From Sulfolobus acidocaldarius SUSAZ (GTDB taxonomy: Archaea; Thermoproteota; Thermoprotei_A; Sulfolobales; Sulfolobaceae), in NCBI GenBank assembly GCA_000508305.1, contig CP006977.1:1954621-2018620 (forward strand): a DNA stretch of 64,000 bases, in the 5' to 3' direction. The notes beneath the pieces are model-generated. The model was not told the DNA's origin, ran no database searches, and saw nothing but the letters and a program-made list of their open reading frames with translations. How positions within the stretch are numbered: the first letter of the stretch is position 1; each line of letters opens with the position of its first letter. The position numbers were made by a program, and so were the translations under genes. Positions 40,210 through 62,634 of this stretch are shown here, piece by piece.

Positions 40210-40253
40210 ATTTACATCTATCTTATTTTACAACAATAAGGTTTGTGTTACTG

Positions 40254-40724
40254 TTCAAACTCATATTTGTAATATTTCACGTTTGGATTTTGCTAAGTAA
40301 GCCAGGGACTAAAATTAGAATTTCTCATTAGCGTAAGTATAATTGAATATTTAGAGGATTTGGGGAAAAAGAAACTTGCGTTAAAAAATTTTTTATCTTA
40401 TCTTTATGTTATCCTTGGTATATTAATGTAGCTGGTACTCCTTGTCCATTGGAGAAGTAAATTGTAGCTGTGTAAGAGGCACCTTGGGAGAAAGATGGTG
40501 TAGTGCCACTTGGAGGTGTTACTGTAATTGTTATGGTTACTGAACTTCCAGCTGGAATTGCTGTGGCTCTTATTGTTGTGGTTTTAGTTGTTGAATTTAT
40601 GGTTGTTGTAGTTCCAACTGGAACTGAAGTACTGACTACATTGAAAGGTTGTCCGTTAATGTTTACGCTTGTTACACTAACAGCTGAAGTTCCAGTATTC
40701 TTAACTGTAATCGTAATAATGTAA
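40254..40724 (-). pseudogene. Silent, inverted copy of the pilin C-terminal region (cassette L)
   Basis: On the minus strand this reads as the pilin gene at 48218 from about codon 68 to the stop (TAA near 40410) and then a further 150 bp of its 3' flank. The frame is open throughout and lacks a start codon and promoter; an in-frame TAA lies a few codons before the homology begins. It is about 97% identical to the expressed copy except at two places: a block at 40562-40600 encoding INSTTKTTTIRAT instead of the 15-residue TNTNGATITNTITTT, and PPSG replacing PAGS. The flank after the stop is also nearly identical, so the duplication is a DNA-level event. It may be a donor cassette or the arm of an invertible segment. 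Confidence 0.85.
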
Positions 40725-40791
40725 CTTATGAATTGTTATAGGATAAGTTTGATCTTCACCTATACTCAAAGATGATTATAGGGACGCTACT

Positions 40792-41554
40792 GTGAAGTAC
40801 AAGGGTTGGTTTTACAATCCCAAGAGTGGTAGATATGCAAGAGTTGGGTGCGTTGCAGTTTGGTTAACTCCTACTATCTTGTATAAGTTAGATCTTGAAA
40901 ACATGAAAGTGTGGATTAGGGATGTTGGTGAATTATTAATTTTGGACTGTCCTAGAAACTTGTCGCTTTATAAAACTTGGGAAATTAGAGAAGGCAGATT
41001 GGTGTTAAGAGATGGTATGGCTGAGGGTTTACAAAAGAAGTATAATAAGAGATGGGAGGAGAATGAGAGAATATTGAATAGAATAAGGCATTTCCATAGA
41101 AGGACTAGGAACGTTTTAGAGGATTCTGCTAAAAAGATTGGTGAATGAGTGTAGTTAAAATTGCTAAAATGTATGACGTTGCAGCAATATTCTTAGAAGA
41201 CCTAAATAACTTGGTTAAACATGTTAAGCAATTGTTGAAGTAATTTAGAGAATAGACTTTAACTTTATACATTATCGTAGGGTTCAATTTTGGGTTGAAT
41301 GATAAGTAAAGAAAAGTGGATTAAAGATAATTAAAGTCAAGGCTTTCTATACTTCCACTCGTTGTCTCAAGTGTGGTAATGAGATGAAAGAGGTTTCTCA
41401 TAGGTGTTTTAAATACGTCAAATGTTGTTATGAAAATGATAGGGATGTTATTGCTGTGATGAATCTTTGGGAGGTTTTCTGAGCCTCCTGACTGTTGCTT
41501 AGAGATGTAAGCCCGAACCGATGAGGAGAACCCTCATAGCAGTGAGGAAGTCAG
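40792..41554 (+). pseudogene. tnpB: Degraded tnpB (IS200/IS605 family) with right end
   Basis: TnpB-like stretches appear in order: GWFYNPKSGRY...DLENMKVWIRDVGELLILD (from GTG 40792), AEGLQKKYNKRWEENERILNRIRHFHRRTRNVLED, VVKIAKMYDVAAIFLEDLNNLVKHV, FYTSTRCLKCGNEMKEVSHR with the zinc-finger cysteines, and ENDRDVIAVMNLW with the last RuvC Asp. Stop codons and two internal deletions break it, including loss of the first RuvC Asp region. The tail (41500-41554) ends in GAGGAAGTCAG, the right-end sequence also carried by the small palindromic elements. It is inactive and lies directly beside cassette L. Confidence 0.83.
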
Positions 41555-41842
41555 ATATATATCAACTTATGGGCTATTTTATAGTGTACTACTAGATCTA
41601 GAATTAATTGAATCTATCAAAATTTTATATTTAGTTATTTTTATATACTATTATTATCAAAATTATGATTACCTGTATACATTTGTAAGATTTATACAAT
41701 TAGCTTTCACTGCATTATAAAACCGTAAAACAATAAAACTCTTAATACTATTTTCTCTCTTTACAAAATGTAATATGTAGATATAAGTGGAAGATAATAG
41801 TTAATTTTATAAGTTTGTAATAGTTTGTATAATAAGATTACC

Positions 41843-42325
41843 ATGATACGACGTTATAGATATGATAAACGAAGGATCAGAGCACTTTCCGGAGCAATAG
41901 TAGCTTTAATTTTGGTGATAGCAGGAGTCATAATAGCTACCGCAGTAGTCCTATTTGCGTTTGGTCTGATCCCAGCCATATCCAATCAAGGCAGTGCACA
42001 GGTAGTTGGAACTGGTGCTATTGAATACGCAGGTTCAGGTCAATATAATATAATTATAACAGTGAGAAATACAGCATCTAATTTTAACGTGACAGTAAGT
42101 AGCATTAACATCGCTGGTATTAGCTTCACAATAAACAAGATCAATAACATAACTTATAATCCTAATAATCCTATGGAACAAGTAGGACCAGGAAAAATAG
42201 AGACATTGACCATAACAGCAACTCCAACATCATCAATAGTCTTCTCATCTGGTCAAACATATACTGCAACTGTCTACTTTTCTAATGGTCTAGGTGCACC
42301 AACTACTCTAATATATCAAGGCTGA
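41843..42325 (+). CDS. aapB: Type IV pilin, AapB-like
   Basis: About 160 residues. The class III signal peptide is RIRALSGAIVALILVIAGVIIATAVVLFAFGLIPAI: a basic N-terminus, cleavage by PibD near ALSG/A, then the hydrophobic alpha1 helix. The C-terminal part is a Thr/Asn-rich beta domain ending ATVYFSNGLGAPTTLIYQG, the same ending as the second pilin. I prefer the ATG at 41843; a TTG at 41825 gives six extra residues. Upstream is TTTATAAGT at 41805-41813. Its TGA stop is supplied by the palindromic element that begins here. The order of the locus matches the S. acidocaldarius aap genes; the symbol is by that match. Confidence 0.87.
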   Translation: MIRRYRYDKRRIRALSGAIVALILVIAGVIIATAVVLFAFGLIPAISNQGSAQVVGTGAIEYAGSGQYNIIITVRNTASNFNVTVSSINIAGISFTINKINNITYNPNNPMEQVGPGKIETLTITATPTSSIVFSSGQTYTATVYFSNGLGAPTTLIYQG

Positions 42326-42370
42326 CTTCCTCCCCGCCCTAAAAGGCGAGGCTTTCGTCATTTTGTAAAA
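42323..42370 (-). repeat. Palindromic IS200/IS605-type end element, copy C
   Basis: On the minus strand: TTTTTAC, AAAATGACGAAAGCCTCGCC, TTTTAGGGCGGGGAGGAAGT, CAG. TTAC precedes the left end. Its right end meets the pilin gene: the TGA stop of the pilin is the first three bases of this element read on the plus strand. Confidence 0.8.
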
Positions 42371-42464
42371 ACATTATATTTCATAATTTATTTCTAGTTC
42401 TATTTTCCTCTCTTTTGCATGCTTTATTAAAAAACTCTTTATAAAAATTCAATGTAGTTTTCAA

Positions 42465-42555
42465 TGCGGCCGCCGGGATTCGAACCCGGGATTGCTGGCT
42501 TTCCTCTCTGACTAATGGAAGGCCAGCGTCCTAATCCAGACTAGACGACGGCCGC
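42465..42555 (-). tRNA. tRNA-Gly (TCC) with intron
   Basis: Acceptor stem GCGGCCG pairs with CGGCCGC. D arm GTCTAGTCTGGATTAGGAC. The anticodon arm CTGGC/GCCAG encloses C-T-TCC-A, a roughly 15-nt intron at the archaeal 37/38 site (TTAGTCAGAGAGGAA), then A. T arm CCGGG-TTCGAAT-CCCGG. Anticodon TCC. No CCA is encoded. Confidence 0.9.
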
Positions 42556-42608
42556 GAGATAATTAATTGACTTGTAGGCTTAAAAAACTTTTTCCATAAA
42601 ACCTTCTT

Positions 42609-44192
42609 TCATCCGTTTACTAATAACTCGTCGAAGAGACTCTGAATTAGTTTGGGCTCAACCACGCTCTTTAGAGCTATCTTTAAATATTTTACGAATT
42701 CATCACTTCCAGCTATCTCCCTGTTCTCATATGAAGCGTTCTTGCCAATCAGTTTAACTAGATTGTCTATCTTTTCTTCATCCAATGTCTTTTCGCTCAT
42801 CTCATAAACTTTACTTACAATAGTCTTGAGGAACATGGGATCTAATGACTTTATCCATGTTTCATATTCCTTCAAAGATTGCCTGAAATTCTCTATAAAC
42901 TTCTTCCTTATTATAGGGCTAACTAGTTTAACAAAGTAGTCTGGATTCCCTGTCTTTAATGCAGAAAGATTGCTAGCTATTTCTTTGGCTGAATTAAAAG
43001 ACGCAGTATTTATTGAGTTCAGAACCTCATCCACTAATATCTTATCAAGATTTCCTATGTTTACTTCAATGACTTTTCTAGTATAGACAGAGAGAACTCC
43101 TAATTTATATGTTATAAAGGGACAGACTGATTTAGCCTCTCCTTCTTTCTGGGTGGTTCTGTGGGTTATTTGGTAATCAACATCAACTCCTATTTTCTTA
43201 GCCCAAGTACATCCATAAACCTTGTCCCTAACATAAGGCTTTATAACATCATATCCGAAGAAACCTCTTTTACCTCCAAATCTTGTGTAAACGTAAAAAC
43301 CTTCTGGGCATAGGAAGTAAATTCCCTCAGCACTATTATTTTCAAGCAATTTTTCAATATATGTTACATCATTGCGTGCACCACTCAGGTCACCGGCTAT
43401 GTACTTATTGAATCCACAACAGACATTGTCAATAATTTTCACTCTGGGGGAGACGTCAGTAAGATTATCACCATATTTATACAGATATTCTAGAAAACCT
43501 AAGATGCCTATCTCATCGTAATTAGCCATACAGCCGACAAATAACAAATAAAGTGGATATGCGTTGTATTTCTCCTCTAACAATTTCTCGTATTCCTTAA
43601 CTTTGTCAGAAACAGGAGTTATTTTGGGCATATCTTCAAAATCTGTGACATAAGCAGGTATTCTAATGTTGGACGGAACTCTCCTCCTTCTCAATTTATA
43701 TATTGAAGCAGAAAGATAATCCTTCAATTCAGATAACTTAGGTCCCTTATAGTCTAAGTTGAACGTAACCCTTCTATTTTTAACTGTAATGTATAGTTTC
43801 GCATACTCTCTTCCATCTATTATCATTAAATATATAAGAGTCCTGTTCTTGTACAAAACATCTCCTATCATAGCAAAGTATCTTGTAGATAAACTGAAGG
43901 AACCAAATCTGCTTTTAGCCTGCTCAAATAAGTTCTTGGGATCGGCAAGGAATGCGATAATGCTATTGTCACTATCTCCTTCCATTTGGATTGTTTTCTT
44001 GAATCTGAGGAGGCTATTTAGAGTCAATATAATACCAGCAACTAATAAACCTATACCAGCCCCTAACATTGTTGGCGCAATTAGGAAAAATCCTGGTCTT
44101 GAGCGGAAAGCTACGAAAAATACTATTAGGATAATACCTATTATGATAAATAAGTAGTAGTAATAGTTCCTTAATCTGATGAGAGCTGACAT
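42609..44192 (-). CDS. aapX: AapX-like membrane-anchored cysteine-rich oxidoreductase
   Basis: 527 residues. Two membrane helices near the N-terminus (YLFIIIGIILIVFFVAF, APTMLGAGIGLLVAGIILTL), then a soluble part with cysteine motifs VGCMANY ... NVCCGFNKY ... YFLCPEGFY, resembling the CCG domain of HdrB and iron-sulfur oxidoreductases, and a long helical C-terminus. In the S. acidocaldarius Aap locus a gene of this type (AapX) lies with the assembly ATPase and platform protein, and it is reported necessary for pili. The exact chemistry is unknown. It is downstream of aapE (85 nt) and may be co-transcribed. Confidence 0.78.
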   Translation of the reverse strand: MSALIRLRNYYYYLFIIIGIILIVFFVAFRSRPGFFLIAPTMLGAGIGLLVAGIILTLNSLLRFKKTIQMEGDSDNSIIAFLADPKNLFEQAKSRFGSFSLSTRYFAMIGDVLYKNRTLIYLMIIDGREYAKLYITVKNRRVTFNLDYKGPKLSELKDYLSASIYKLRRRRVPSNIRIPAYVTDFEDMPKITPVSDKVKEYEKLLEEKYNAYPLYLLFVGCMANYDEIGILGFLEYLYKYGDNLTDVSPRVKIIDNVCCGFNKYIAGDLSGARNDVTYIEKLLENNSAEGIYFLCPEGFYVYTRFGGKRGFFGYDVIKPYVRDKVYGCTWAKKIGVDVDYQITHRTTQKEGEAKSVCPFITYKLGVLSVYTRKVIEVNIGNLDKILVDEVLNSINTASFNSAKEIASNLSALKTGNPDYFVKLVSPIIRKKFIENFRQSLKEYETWIKSLDPMFLKTIVSKVYEMSEKTLDEEKIDNLVKLIGKNASYENREIAGSDEFVKYLKIALKSVVEPKLIQSLFDELLVNG

Positions 44193-44277
44193 AATCCTCC
44201 CTTAAATTTAATTGGAATATATGAGAAGCAAAAATAAAAATATTTGCATCCTAACTAATGTTAAAAATAAGATAAGG

Positions 44278-45960
44278 TTATACTTTAGCAACACTTATTC
44301 TTTGAACTTCCTTGATTGCTTCATCAGGTTTTATGGAGTATAATACTATGTACTTCTTAACGAAAACATAAGCATCTGGTCTATCTAATATCTGCTTTAT
44401 ACCAGATAACATTTTAAGGTAATTCGCCCTTCTCTTTATCTCATCTCCTACAATATCTAAGTTCAGTCCAATCTCCTCAATTCTGCTCTTCAATACCTCA
44501 CTCTTACTCAAATCGAATGTATGTGAATCAGTATTTGGATCCCAGTTACCAACTTTCTTTAACCTGTTATATGAAACCACTTCATCAACTTCTACAACCC
44601 TTCGCTTGAATGAAAGACCAAATGGTATTCTCCTTACAGTTAAAACAACATTCATCATAGGAATCCAATCCCTAGGTATATTCAGGGGCTCATTCATCAA
44701 CCTCTTTATTGCAGACTCTGGATCATATGCGTGAAAAGTAGTAGCTCCACCGTGTCCAGTACTTAATGCTTGGAACAATACATATGACTCTTCTCCTCTA
44801 ATCTCACCAACAGTTATTATATCAGGTCTATATCTCAGAGATAACTTAAGTAAGTCCATTAGGGTAATCTCCTTTCCTAGGGCACCGAATACTGGTCTAG
44901 TGTAAAGCTGAACCCAATTATCCCTAGCCAACTTCAGCTCTGGTATATCTTCTATACTAACTATTTTCATGGTATCCTTAACCAAGTTCAGTAGTGCGTT
45001 TAGCACAGTGGTCTTTCCTGCTCCAGTGGTACCTATGACCATAAACGACATCTTCAGATCTATGGCATACCATAAGTAAGCAACTAAATCTGCTGAAATA
45101 ACGCCTTGATTTATTAAGTGTAATACAGTCACTGGGCTCTCTGAGAATCTCCTTATTACGAAAGAAGTACCTTTTGCGCTTACCTCTCGTCCGTATGTAG
45201 CTGCTATTCTATCTCCTGCAGGTAACATACCATCTGAGATCGGACTGGCAATAGATATTGATCTCCCTGATAACGATATATATCTCATAGTTATCTGGTT
45301 AAGAAACTCCTCTCCATCAACCTCATCATTCAATACACTCATTCTTTTCTGAAATATTATATTAGTTGGAATATATTCATAGTCCCTATGGTAGACATAT
45401 ATGGGGGCATTTAGTCCATTCACAGATATATCCTCAACTTTATAGTCAGCTAAAAGTGGTGTGAACACATTATAACCTAACAAGTTTCGTATAATGTGAT
45501 ACAGAGCTACCCTAGCTTCAGGTTTTAAGACTGTGTAATCACCACGAGAGCCCTCTATTACATAATCTCTATATATATTCGAAAAGTCCCTAATACTGGC
45601 TCCTATATCAAAATGCTTTCCTACAAACTGCCTCTCGAGATATTTTATAAGTAATTTGTAGATTACAAACGACTTCTCGTCTAGTGGAGGTTCAATGAGA
45701 ACGTACTTGTGAACTCCCCTATCATTATCAAAGTAAATAAAGACGTGAGGATTAGGAATTTTCATTTCTATGCCTGAATTATTCAGCTGATCAACTAGAT
45801 ACTTGGAAATTTGAGATAGTACATCGACCTCATATTCAGACGAGATATTAAGTACTTCTTCTGGAATCCCAGTGAAAGGGTAGAGAGTAACTGGTATCTT
45901 GTATTGAGATATCTCTTCCAGATCCTTATTAGACTTTCGAGTAAATTTACTAAGTGCCAT
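44278..45960 (-). CDS. aapE: Pilus assembly ATPase (GspE/PilB superfamily), AapE-like
   Basis: 560 residues. The ATPase core has VIGTTGAGKTTVLNALL (Walker A, about 320), the Asp-box EDIPELKL, HGGATTFHAYDPE and Walker B DIITVGEIRGEESYVL. The N-terminal half is the archaeal assembly-ATPase domain with DYKVEDISVNGLNAPIYVYHRDYEYI. It hydrolyses ATP on the cytoplasmic face to drive pilin assembly by the platform protein AapF. Its promoter has a TATA-like CTTATATAATTT (45980-45990) at leaderless distance from the ATG at 45960. Confidence 0.92.
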   Translation of the reverse strand: MALSKFTRKSNKDLEEISQYKIPVTLYPFTGIPEEVLNISSEYEVDVLSQISKYLVDQLNNSGIEMKIPNPHVFIYFDNDRGVHKYVLIEPPLDEKSFVIYKLLIKYLERQFVGKHFDIGASIRDFSNIYRDYVIEGSRGDYTVLKPEARVALYHIIRNLLGYNVFTPLLADYKVEDISVNGLNAPIYVYHRDYEYIPTNIIFQKRMSVLNDEVDGEEFLNQITMRYISLSGRSISIASPISDGMLPAGDRIAATYGREVSAKGTSFVIRRFSESPVTVLHLINQGVISADLVAYLWYAIDLKMSFMVIGTTGAGKTTVLNALLNLVKDTMKIVSIEDIPELKLARDNWVQLYTRPVFGALGKEITLMDLLKLSLRYRPDIITVGEIRGEESYVLFQALSTGHGGATTFHAYDPESAIKRLMNEPLNIPRDWIPMMNVVLTVRRIPFGLSFKRRVVEVDEVVSYNRLKKVGNWDPNTDSHTFDLSKSEVLKSRIEEIGLNLDIVGDEIKRRANYLKMLSGIKQILDRPDAYVFVKKYIVLYSIKPDEAIKEVQRISVAKV

Positions 45961-46128
45961 AGTATATATATATAAAACTCCAAATTATATAAGCTTTTCA
46001 CCTTCTATAAGTTATCTTCAAATCAAATAACAAGCTTTTTGAGGAAGAAAAAATACAATAATTAAAAAGGTTTCCTGAACCTCTATTTTCTCATAAGAAC
46101 TAATAAAAAACCTAACTTTCTGAATGAT

Positions 46129-47961
46129 TTAGAAACTTATGTTAGAGTGGAAGTTTGGTACTATTGAAATTCGCAGCTCTACAAACACGAAAATTACAAG
46201 CGTAACTACTATCATGAGTATTATAGCATGTATAAACCCTGCGGCGGCTTTACCATAACCGATCTTACCAATTAATAAACCTGCCAGAAATGCGTTTAGT
46301 ATACCTGATATTGCAGTAATGAATATGATTTGTGGAATTGAAACTAAACCAGTAGCTATTGGTCCATAAACAGCTATTCCAGAATTCAACATACTTAAAA
46401 TACCACTAGCTAAGAGGAACGTAGCAATCAGAGATATCAAGACACCTGCATAGGGAGTAGCAATAAGTGGTTTTACCTTCCCTTGATATTCTCTTCTAAC
46501 TACTAGCTGACTATTTATTTGATCAGCTAGAGCTCTAACGTTGTCAGGTGTCATACTGCCAATCTCAATCATATCTGAAAGAGTGTAAAGAGCTATTTTA
46601 CTTGCGAATTCATTAATCGAATCAGCCCCTCTTTTCAGAGCTATCGTTAGAGGATAGCCTAACTTCAAATATCCATCAACCTTTCTTAAAACTTCCCTGA
46701 ACTTACCCATTTCCTGAGCGTCTTTCAGTCTAGTAACTACAGTCTCGAAAGTAAGACCTGCCAATAGACCTTCAGATATTGCACTCAGAAACTTTACAGC
46801 ATACTCCTCAAATCCACTCTTCTCTCTCATCTCCTTCTGATAGAAAAATGCAGGAGGTACTAAAGCTACTAATAAACCTATTAAGAGAGCAATTGATACA
46901 GGAAAGACGTTCTGCAGACCTCCTGAAAGAGTTATGAAATATATTATCTGATGTTCAAATATCATGATCAGGAAAGCTATAATCAAACCTATTGGTAGTG
47001 AGATGTAAAATATTTTATATGCACTAGATTGACTTTCAGGGAATTTAAGCTGTAAGGAGTCTGCCATATAGACAAAGAGTAAGTTAACCATTGGCACAAC
47101 TAATACCACCACAGGACCAAGAACAGTCAACAAGGAACTCGAGTTACCAACGAAGGGTAATATAGCACCCATTATTAAAACGAGGTATAACATTATATAG
47201 CCAGAAGAAAGCCAAACTACATAAGATTCTGCTACACCCTGAAGCTTATCTGAGGCTAAAGCTGCGGCTAATGAAAACTGCTTAGATAGGTCCTTTAACT
47301 TAGCTTCCATAGTCTCTATCACAGGAGCACCAGTCCTTATTGCCGTAACATAAGCTAGCATAAAGTCATTGAATAGCTTGCCTGGATTTATATCCATAGC
47401 CTTTAATAAAGCCTGCTCAATACTTTCACTTAAGTATTGAACTCTTCTATTAACGTATACTACAATATCTTGGACAAACGAAAATGCCTTAGTTCCCTCT
47501 AATTTTCTAAACAAGATCACTGGAGATAAACCAGACTTAAGAAATATGACAAATAACGTAGCAAATGAGAATGACTCAGCGTCTACCCCATTCTTTATTT
47601 TGTCAATTTTCTGCGATATATCGAGAATAGATATGAGATAAGCTATTGGGGGAATTATAACTCCAAGGAACAACATAACTAATGAGAGAGCTAGATATGC
47701 TGGCAAAAGTGTGGCTCTGTAAAACCTGAGGAAAATTATTAGAGCGAAAGAGATAAACATAACAGCCAAGACGATACATACAAGTAAGATGAGGAACAGC
47801 CTGCTAGCAAACAGTTTCGGATCTTCTGTGTTTCTAGAAGTTAAAAGTCTTTTATCGAAATAACCAGCTAACCTTTTGACAAATGGTGTATTGTAAAATA
47901 ATAAATACACTGAAGGAATGTTAATCTTGGAGGACTTTTTATCCTTACTCATCTTACTCAT
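46129..47961 (-). CDS. aapF: Pilus assembly platform protein (GspF/TadC-like), AapF-like
   Basis: 610 residues with about nine membrane segments in two GspF-like units; the cytoplasmic parts are VESFSFATLFVIFLKSGLSPVILFRKLEGT... and EYAVKFLSAISEGLLAGLTFETVVTRLKDAQEMGKFREVLRKVDGYLKLGYPLTIAL. This is the size and pattern of archaeal double T2SF platform proteins that pair with AapE. It is first of the minus-strand group aapF-aapE-aapX and lies 257 bp from the divergent pilin gene at 48218. The C-terminus (VELRISIVPNFHSNISF) ends after a last membrane helix. Confidence 0.88.
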   Translation of the reverse strand: MSKMSKDKKSSKINIPSVYLLFYNTPFVKRLAGYFDKRLLTSRNTEDPKLFASRLFLILLVCIVLAVMFISFALIIFLRFYRATLLPAYLALSLVMLFLGVIIPPIAYLISILDISQKIDKIKNGVDAESFSFATLFVIFLKSGLSPVILFRKLEGTKAFSFVQDIVVYVNRRVQYLSESIEQALLKAMDINPGKLFNDFMLAYVTAIRTGAPVIETMEAKLKDLSKQFSLAAALASDKLQGVAESYVVWLSSGYIMLYLVLIMGAILPFVGNSSSLLTVLGPVVVLVVPMVNLLFVYMADSLQLKFPESQSSAYKIFYISLPIGLIIAFLIMIFEHQIIYFITLSGGLQNVFPVSIALLIGLLVALVPPAFFYQKEMREKSGFEEYAVKFLSAISEGLLAGLTFETVVTRLKDAQEMGKFREVLRKVDGYLKLGYPLTIALKRGADSINEFASKIALYTLSDMIEIGSMTPDNVRALADQINSQLVVRREYQGKVKPLIATPYAGVLISLIATFLLASGILSMLNSGIAVYGPIATGLVSIPQIIFITAISGILNAFLAGLLIGKIGYGKAAAGFIHAIILMIVVTLVIFVFVELRISIVPNFHSNISF

Positions 47962-48177
47962 GTATATTCACACAGTAAAAGTATATAAATTAAGTTAAGT
48001 CTAAAACTTAAATCTATGGAAAACTGCCTTTTCTTTATAGCTTTAAACAGAGAATCTTATTATTCTAGGATATCCAGAGTATACTAAATACATGATTTAA
48101 ATTCTACCAGTTATTTACTTTTTTGGTATCACTCATTCGATTTTGACTCGAAATATAGTGCTTACAAGAAAGAGGAA

Positions 48178-48191
48178 AAATTTAATATTAA
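48178..48191 (+). promoter_or_regulatory. TATA-like box of the expressed pilin
   Basis: AAATTTAATATTAA about 30 nt before the ATG at 48218. It lies inside the DNA bounded by the inverted repeats, so inversion would carry it together with the pilin N-terminal coding region. Confidence 0.5.
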
Positions 48192-48217
48192 AATCCTTAC
48201 TTTTAATATGATAATAT

Positions 48218-48739
48218 ATGAATGTAGAAGTGAAGAAGAGCAAGAAAAAGAACATGAGAGCATTATCCGGAGCAATAGTAGCTCTAATTCTAGTAATAGC
48301 AGGTGTAATAATAGCCATAGCAGTAGTATTATTCGCCTTTGGTTTAATACCAGGAATATCAAACCAGGGAAGCATACAAGTTCTGGGAAGTGGAACTATT
48401 AGTGGTACTGCAGCTCCTTACACTATTACGATTACAGTTAAGAATACTGGAACTTCAGATGTTAGTGTAACAAGCATAAACATTAACGGACAACCTTTCA
48501 CTGTAAGCAGTACTTCAGTTCCAGTTGGAACTACAACAACCACAAATACAAACGGTGCTACAATAACAAACACAATAACAACCACAGCAATTCCAGCTGG
48601 AAGTTCAGTAACCATAACAATTACAGTAACACCTGCAGGTAGCACTACACCATCTTTCTCCCAAGGTGCCTCTTACACAGCTACAATTTACTTCTCCAAT
48701 GGACAAGGAGTACCAGCTACATTAATATACCAAGGATAA
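48218..48739 (+). CDS. aapA: Type IV pilin, AapA-like (expressed copy with variable C-terminal domain)
   Basis: 173 residues. Class III signal KKNMRALSGAIVALILVIAGVIIAIAVVLFAFGLIPGI with basic leader and PibD cleavage near ALSG/A. The mature protein is a hydrophobic helix plus a Thr-rich beta domain ending ATIYFSNGQGVPATLIYQG. Residues from about 68 onward, and the DNA after the stop, are duplicated in inverted orientation at 40254-40724. The two copies differ mainly at residues 109-123, a Thr/Asn loop that is probably on the pilus surface. It is divergent from the assembly genes, and forms Aap pili with AapB (by synteny with S. acidocaldarius). Confidence 0.9.
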   Translation: MNVEVKKSKKKNMRALSGAIVALILVIAGVIIAIAVVLFAFGLIPGISNQGSIQVLGSGTISGTAAPYTITITVKNTGTSDVSVTSININGQPFTVSSTSVPVGTTTTTNTNGATITNTITTTAIPAGSSVTITITVTPAGSTTPSFSQGASYTATIYFSNGQGVPATLIYQG

Positions 48740-48893
48740 CATAAAGGTAAGATAAAAAATTTTTTAACGCAAGTTTTCTTTTTCCCCAAATCCTCTAAAT
48801 ATTCAATTATACTTACGCTAATGAGAAATTCTAATTTTAGTCCCTAGCTTACTTGGCAAAATCCAACGTGAAATATTACAAATATGAGTTGAA
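48418..48893 (+). repeat. Inverted repeat arm R (pilin C-terminal region and 3' flank)
   Basis: Matches the reverse complement of 40254-40724. Homology begins at TTACACTATTACG within codon 68 of the pilin and ends near ATATGAGTTGAAAG. Outside a 45-nt block (48542-48586, replaced by 39 nt in the other arm) I count about 14 single-base or one-base-gap differences in roughly 430 positions, about 97% identity. The arms enclose 7.7 kb containing all the aap genes, the tnpB remnant and tRNA-Gly. Confidence 0.88.

Positions 48894-55126: not shown

Positions 55127-55681
<555 letters not shown>

Positions 55682-62078: not shown

Positions 62079-62634
<556 letters not shown>

Follow-up and report, generated by a model that had tools for sequence, protein, structure and literature searches.

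Inverted pilin genes have been described in Sulfolobus islandicus. Rowland et al. reported that pilA1 and pilA2 lie on opposite strands and that seven of 12 genomes carry them as identical copies; the two genes are required for infection by SSV9 and SIRV and carry signs of diversifying selection (PMC7217056). Several Sulfolobus viruses need pili to infect, and pili diversify at the codon level (PMC7217056). A 2022 paper in Viruses recognized pilA1 and pilA2 as inverted repeats, found the interval between them in both orientations among S. islandicus genomes, and pointed out that crossovers could reassort the two genes (PMC9319562). PCR on clones of S. islandicus K00 16-4, whether sensitive or resistant, detected no inversion (PMC9319562). 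The general idea of inverted pilins is thus already known from these two papers, and a sequence-only reading of the locus considered here was mistaken in holding that no archaeal pilin inversion had been described. Literature searches returned no report of a silent pilin cassette in S. acidocaldarius.

We analysed a window of 64,000 nucleotides, positions 1954621-2018620 of the one-contig genome (2,061,920 bp) of Sulfolobus acidocaldarius SUSAZ. BLASTN of the two ends of the pilus locus identified two arms in inverted orientation that are identical in 444 of 474 columns (93.7%, 8 gap positions, E = 0), with exact-match stretches of 105, 71 and 53 nt (Table 1). This is the inverted repeat that the sequence-only reading had reported, with the inner edges where it had placed them and the outer edges shifted by 3-4 bases. 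As also proposed there, the match begins at codon 68 of the expressed pilin gene, aapB, and runs through the stop codon into the 3' flank. The frame of the left copy is open over 104 codons (40723-40412) and ends at a stop at 40411-40409. Codons 1-67 are missing, there is an upstream in-frame stop, and neither a start codon nor a promoter is present, so its description as promoterless, startless and frame-intact was accurate. The only other DNA match to this stretch of aapB in the whole genome is aapA (76% over 147 nt).

Table 1. Features of the aap locus of S. acidocaldarius SUSAZ. Positions are those of the window.
Feature	Position	Strand	Description	Basis
Left arm	40258..40724	-	Silent pilin cassette and 3' flank, no start codon	BLASTN
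tnpB remnant	40716..41554	+	IS605-type, 5' part missing	Related genomic copies share its 3' edge
aapA	41825..42325	+	Second (minor) pilin	ORF, 97% aa identity to G001 copy
tRNA-Trp	42465..42555	-	Within potentially invertible interval	ARAGORN
aapX	42609..44192	-		ORF order, 95% identity to G001; name from published aap cluster
aapE	44278..45960	-	Assembly ATPase	PF00437
aapF	46129..47961	-	Membrane platform protein	PF00482
aapB	48218..48739	+	Expressed major pilin, 173 aa	ORF; best match 8q30 by sequence and fold
Right arm	48418..48890	+	Codons 68-173 of aapB and ~150 bp of 3' flank	BLASTN
Variable block	48542..48583	+	Codons 109-122; beta-hairpin tip of head in AF2 model	Arm comparison

The tnpB remnant, aapA, tRNA-Trp, aapX, aapE and aapF all lie between the arms, as do the promoter and N-terminus of aapB. 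This agrees with the earlier placement of the promoter, the constant N-terminus and the assembly genes between the arms. We identified the genes as an Aap locus from the AapB-type pilin together with aapX, aapE and aapF, the T2SSE and T2SSF domains, and a gene order equal to that of G001, the one other genome examined from the genus (2,225,959 bp). AapB matched no Pfam or NCBIfam family. Its best match, by sequence and by fold, is 8q30, the S. acidocaldarius Aap filament, which an AapB homologue builds alone (PMC11178815). AapA is 97% identical to its G001 copy and AapB only 70%, although the genes are neighbours; thus, the major pilin evolves much faster. A palindromic dispersed repeat of ~47-50 bp, with at least 40 genomic copies, occurs just past the aapA stop codon (42322-42370); further copies are found near 55137-55162, 62089-62114 and 62445-62470.

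The coding parts of the arms differ by 20 substitutions and one in-frame 6-nt indel. The differences form a cluster, with 11 of the 20 substitutions inside 36 nt (permutation P 2e-5), and the variable block of 14 codons contains 11 substitutions as well as the indel. In an AF2 model of mean pLDDT 85 (about 91-93 in the variable block), the block makes up the turn and the second strand in a hairpin whose strands are 92-109 and 115-122. The AapB of G001 has at this position a short loop carrying N103. We modelled 277 crossovers, one at each exact-match point, and every one leaves an intact pilin ORF, of 171 aa if the silent block is gained and of 173 aa if it is not. The expectation that a flip would rebuild an intact pilin of 171 instead of 173 residues is thereby borne out. 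N-X-S/T sequons are absent from active AapB. A single one, N110-S-T in the variable block, is present in the 171-aa products. The G001 protein has sequons at 63, 75, 103 and 129, of which the first three are all glycosylated in the filament structure (PMC11178815).

These features suggest how the locus may work. The arms would pair and recombine through ordinary homologous recombination. A crossover would invert ~7.7 kb, so that the other head would come to follow the aapB promoter and N-terminus, and in a non-crossover event one arm would take over head sequence copied from its partner. Either event would alter the exposed pilin head (hairpin 109-122, with one N-glycosylation sequon) and keep the assembly genes intact. 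Variation of the pilus surface would be the likely benefit, serving surface recognition or defence against viruses that bind pili. For UpsA, 15-22 residues in one patch suffice to change species recognition (PMC7064770); thus, a block of 14 codons could matter.

We lean towards reading the SUSAZ locus as the S. acidocaldarius version of the Sulfolobaceae inverted pilin pair, with one partner reduced to a promoterless C-terminal cassette that is able to recombine. A serious rival, to which we give appreciable but lesser credence, is that the left arm is an inert relic: what is left of a full-length inverted pilin gene of the ancestor, or else of an inverted duplication that arose recently, truncated through rearrangement with tnpB and decaying unused. 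At its 5' edge the cassette meets the truncated tnpB, and both share ATAATG[T/C]AACTTAT; a rearrangement with the tnpB element thus probably cut the cassette, as this explanation would have it. The silent copy also has no start codon, and G001 lives without it. Its stop-free frame is of little weight, as a neutral model predicts no stop with a probability of 0.60. Against a relic, the changes are concentrated in a surface hairpin, and the codons that differ between the arms include 15 non-synonymous and 2 synonymous changes (dN 0.08, dS 0.03-0.04). The neutral model predicts 26% synonymous codons, with P 0.10 for a share as low as that observed. Given these two values, selection on the cassette is suggested by the sequences, the single tests being non-significant, and neither test (no stop, synonymous fraction) gave a signal that distinguishes ongoing exchange from an inert, recent duplication.

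Two further points do not fit a relic, namely that the frame is preserved across the 6-nt indel and that both copies have changed. The latter follows from comparison with G001 as the outgroup, in which the ancestral-like state is found in the silent copy at codons 95, 141 and 142, and in the active copy at codons 87 and 140. The end of aapB and its 3' flank (48625-48846) are only 73.9% identical to G001, compared with 93.7% between the arms, so the arms are far closer to one another than to G001. This closeness may be due either to recent duplication or to homogenisation.

The aap locus of G001 has the same orientation and gene order as that of SUSAZ, but neither a cassette nor a second arm; it lacks the sequence corresponding to 40226-41574 and has ~95 unrelated bases in its place. 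In this comparison with one other genome, from which the cassette is absent, no flip was seen at the aap locus. The test by other isolates that the sequence-only reading had proposed thus gave an unchanged orientation and a missing cassette, and does not support inversion at the locus. The difference fits either a gain of the cassette or its loss. A second silent cassette of the SUSAZ type was not found among 31 Sulfolobaceae genomes, and AapB as a query recovered no relatives from collections of viral contigs and genome contigs. A pilin-alignment search found no acidocaldarius-type second cassette; its only matches were one virus contig and four records from Sulfolobaceae. A relative of the Sulfolobaceae-type pilins (L086:7284-7667, ~45% to that of L051) is encoded on a 40-kb IMG/VR contig and is possibly host DNA within a provirus call.

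Whole pilin genes occur as inverted pairs around a short segment in about 10 of the 31 Sulfolobaceae genomes. Their 5' ends face inward and their 3' ends outward, as in the SUSAZ window, with the exception of L060, which faces the other way. Identity within pairs is 100% over 514 bp in L053, 99.4% in L052, 97% in L051, 95% in L057, ~87% in L066 and L056, and 70-79% in the others, and high identity ends within ~50 bp of the gene on both sides. DNA identity in L056, L057 and L066 is 97.8-100% over the first 60 codons and 74-91% in the heads. Locus L056 includes three pilin genes (6439, 12674 and 13845), one of them inverted, with common N-terminal DNA and three different heads. In G016 (3,034,024 bp), two pilin copies of like orientation that are 99.6% identical (L054:9806-10315 and L055:9819-10328) are separated by 341 kb. 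Each has an inverted copy of a 1.44-kb element (99.9%) nearby; the pair seems to have been split by a large inversion.

Both orientations of the interval are found in Sulfurisphaera-type genomes. The flanks of L065 (G028) and L066 (G029) are colinear and the whole interval, which contains a helicase gene plus two others, is inverted (L065:2627-6808 vs L066:8305-12484). The orientation in L067 (G030; L067:12473-16003, with one pilin only) agrees with that in L066, and the identity of L065 to L067 is 95% for the right flank and 94% for the inverted interval. Each pilin of L065 and L066 retains the outer 3' flank of its own side and carries the inner 5' flank of the other, which places the crossover inside the pilin gene. 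Crossovers at such sites yield chimeric pilins. L051 and L056 show a second relative inversion and L052 and L053 a third, to which we give less weight because mobile-element genes lie within the L052 interval. Inversion between inverted pilin pairs thus extends beyond S. islandicus.

The relatives also bear on the alternative that the silent copy is a one-way donor, feeding aapB by gene conversion in the style of gonococcal pilS with the interval never flipping. Their pairs are homogenised, at 99.4-100% within L052 and L053 as against 81% from one of these genomes to the other, which indicates conversion-type exchange. However, crossovers have flipped the interval in relatives (L065 vs L066 and L067; PMC9319562), and a donor role needs no inverted orientation; we consider this explanation rather unlikely. 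Considered together, the pairs in L052, L053, L057 and L051 (95-100% within a genome, ~81% for L052 vs L053) have the pattern of concerted evolution.

An assembly artefact, or a sequence pieced together from mixed strains, would be consistent with a cassette that is known from one assembly only. It is nevertheless very improbable, as the cassette is flanked on both sides by unrelated sequence and has many differences from the other arm, and the genome is a single contig (100% complete, contamination 0.14). A dedicated invertase with short sites, in the style of Moraxella Piv, is the least credible alternative: the layout resembles an invertible pilin locus, but the pilus genes and neighbours examined from 37.4 to 51.5 kb yielded no recombinase or invertase domain (Piv type included), and the homology is not a short exact site but extends over 470 bp and includes mismatches. 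As no recombinase gene turned up near the locus, exchange would most likely proceed by homologous crossover or, just as plausibly, by gene conversion.

For the reading that we prefer, of a reduced partner in an inverted pilin pair, the parts differ in strength. That recombination between the arms has shaped the aap locus is fairly probable, and that flips occur at a detectable frequency is doubtful. For SUSAZ itself, recombination, its reversibility and selection for it are what we infer. A used switch is possible, judging from sequence comparisons, and a selected one is unlikely. We are similarly hesitant about the fullest form of the idea, a selected and reversible pilus-head switch in which inversion of the whole Aap locus would alternate between sequon-free AapB and AapB with a glycan on the exposed hairpin, as part of a Sulfolobaceae-wide variation of pilus surfaces by inverted pilin pairs. 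The candidate switch put forward in the sequence-only reading agrees with the geometry, the rebuilt pilin and the inversions in relatives; inversion at the SUSAZ locus itself was not seen in the comparison with G001. If one crossover replaces the exposed pilin head, this would be a simple antigenic-variation device for archaea. The head-swap locus is testable, and the species is genetically tractable.

The pilin inversion of Moraxella depends on a dedicated invertase (Piv), and its variable segments are inside the inverted piece. At the SUSAZ locus no recombinase was found around the genes, and it is the constant N-terminus that lies inside the invertible part. The resemblance is to tfpQ/tfpI (Marrs et al., 1988, in the account cited in PMC11868660), where one promoter and N-terminus can be joined to two C-terminal segments by inversion. 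The parallel drawn in the earlier reading is thus a loose one: the joining of a shared start to an alternative C-terminus stands in modelled crossovers only, in the 171-aa products, and the recombinase and the placement of the constant part set the two systems apart.

Like Neisseria pilE/pilS, the locus has a promoterless partial pilin copy, homologous to the expressed gene, with an intact frame and a variable head segment. Unlike pilS, there is a single copy, inverted and within 8 kb, which is a candidate donor. The haloarchaeal virus phiCh1 inverts a structural gene by means of the virus recombinase. It is a case of archaeal inversion altering a surface-exposed protein, as a flip at the SUSAZ locus would, but in a viral system (from the passages on it in PMC8371274 and PMC9319562).

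The pilA1/pilA2 pair of S. islandicus shares with the SUSAZ locus inverted type IV pilin copies with homologous arms and variable heads around an interval, and inversion of its interval is reported among strains. Both S. islandicus pilins are full length and each is able to support infection, so a flip need not alter which pilins are made. In SUSAZ, by contrast, the left partner is a silent C-terminal piece without codons 1-67 and a start, rather than a second full and expressible gene, and the interval holds the whole assembly locus. The arrangement is a variant of the known inverted pilin pair, and the truncated silent partner is what is new. With such a partner, a flip would change the expressed head, that is, a 14-codon hairpin segment and one N-glycosylation sequon.
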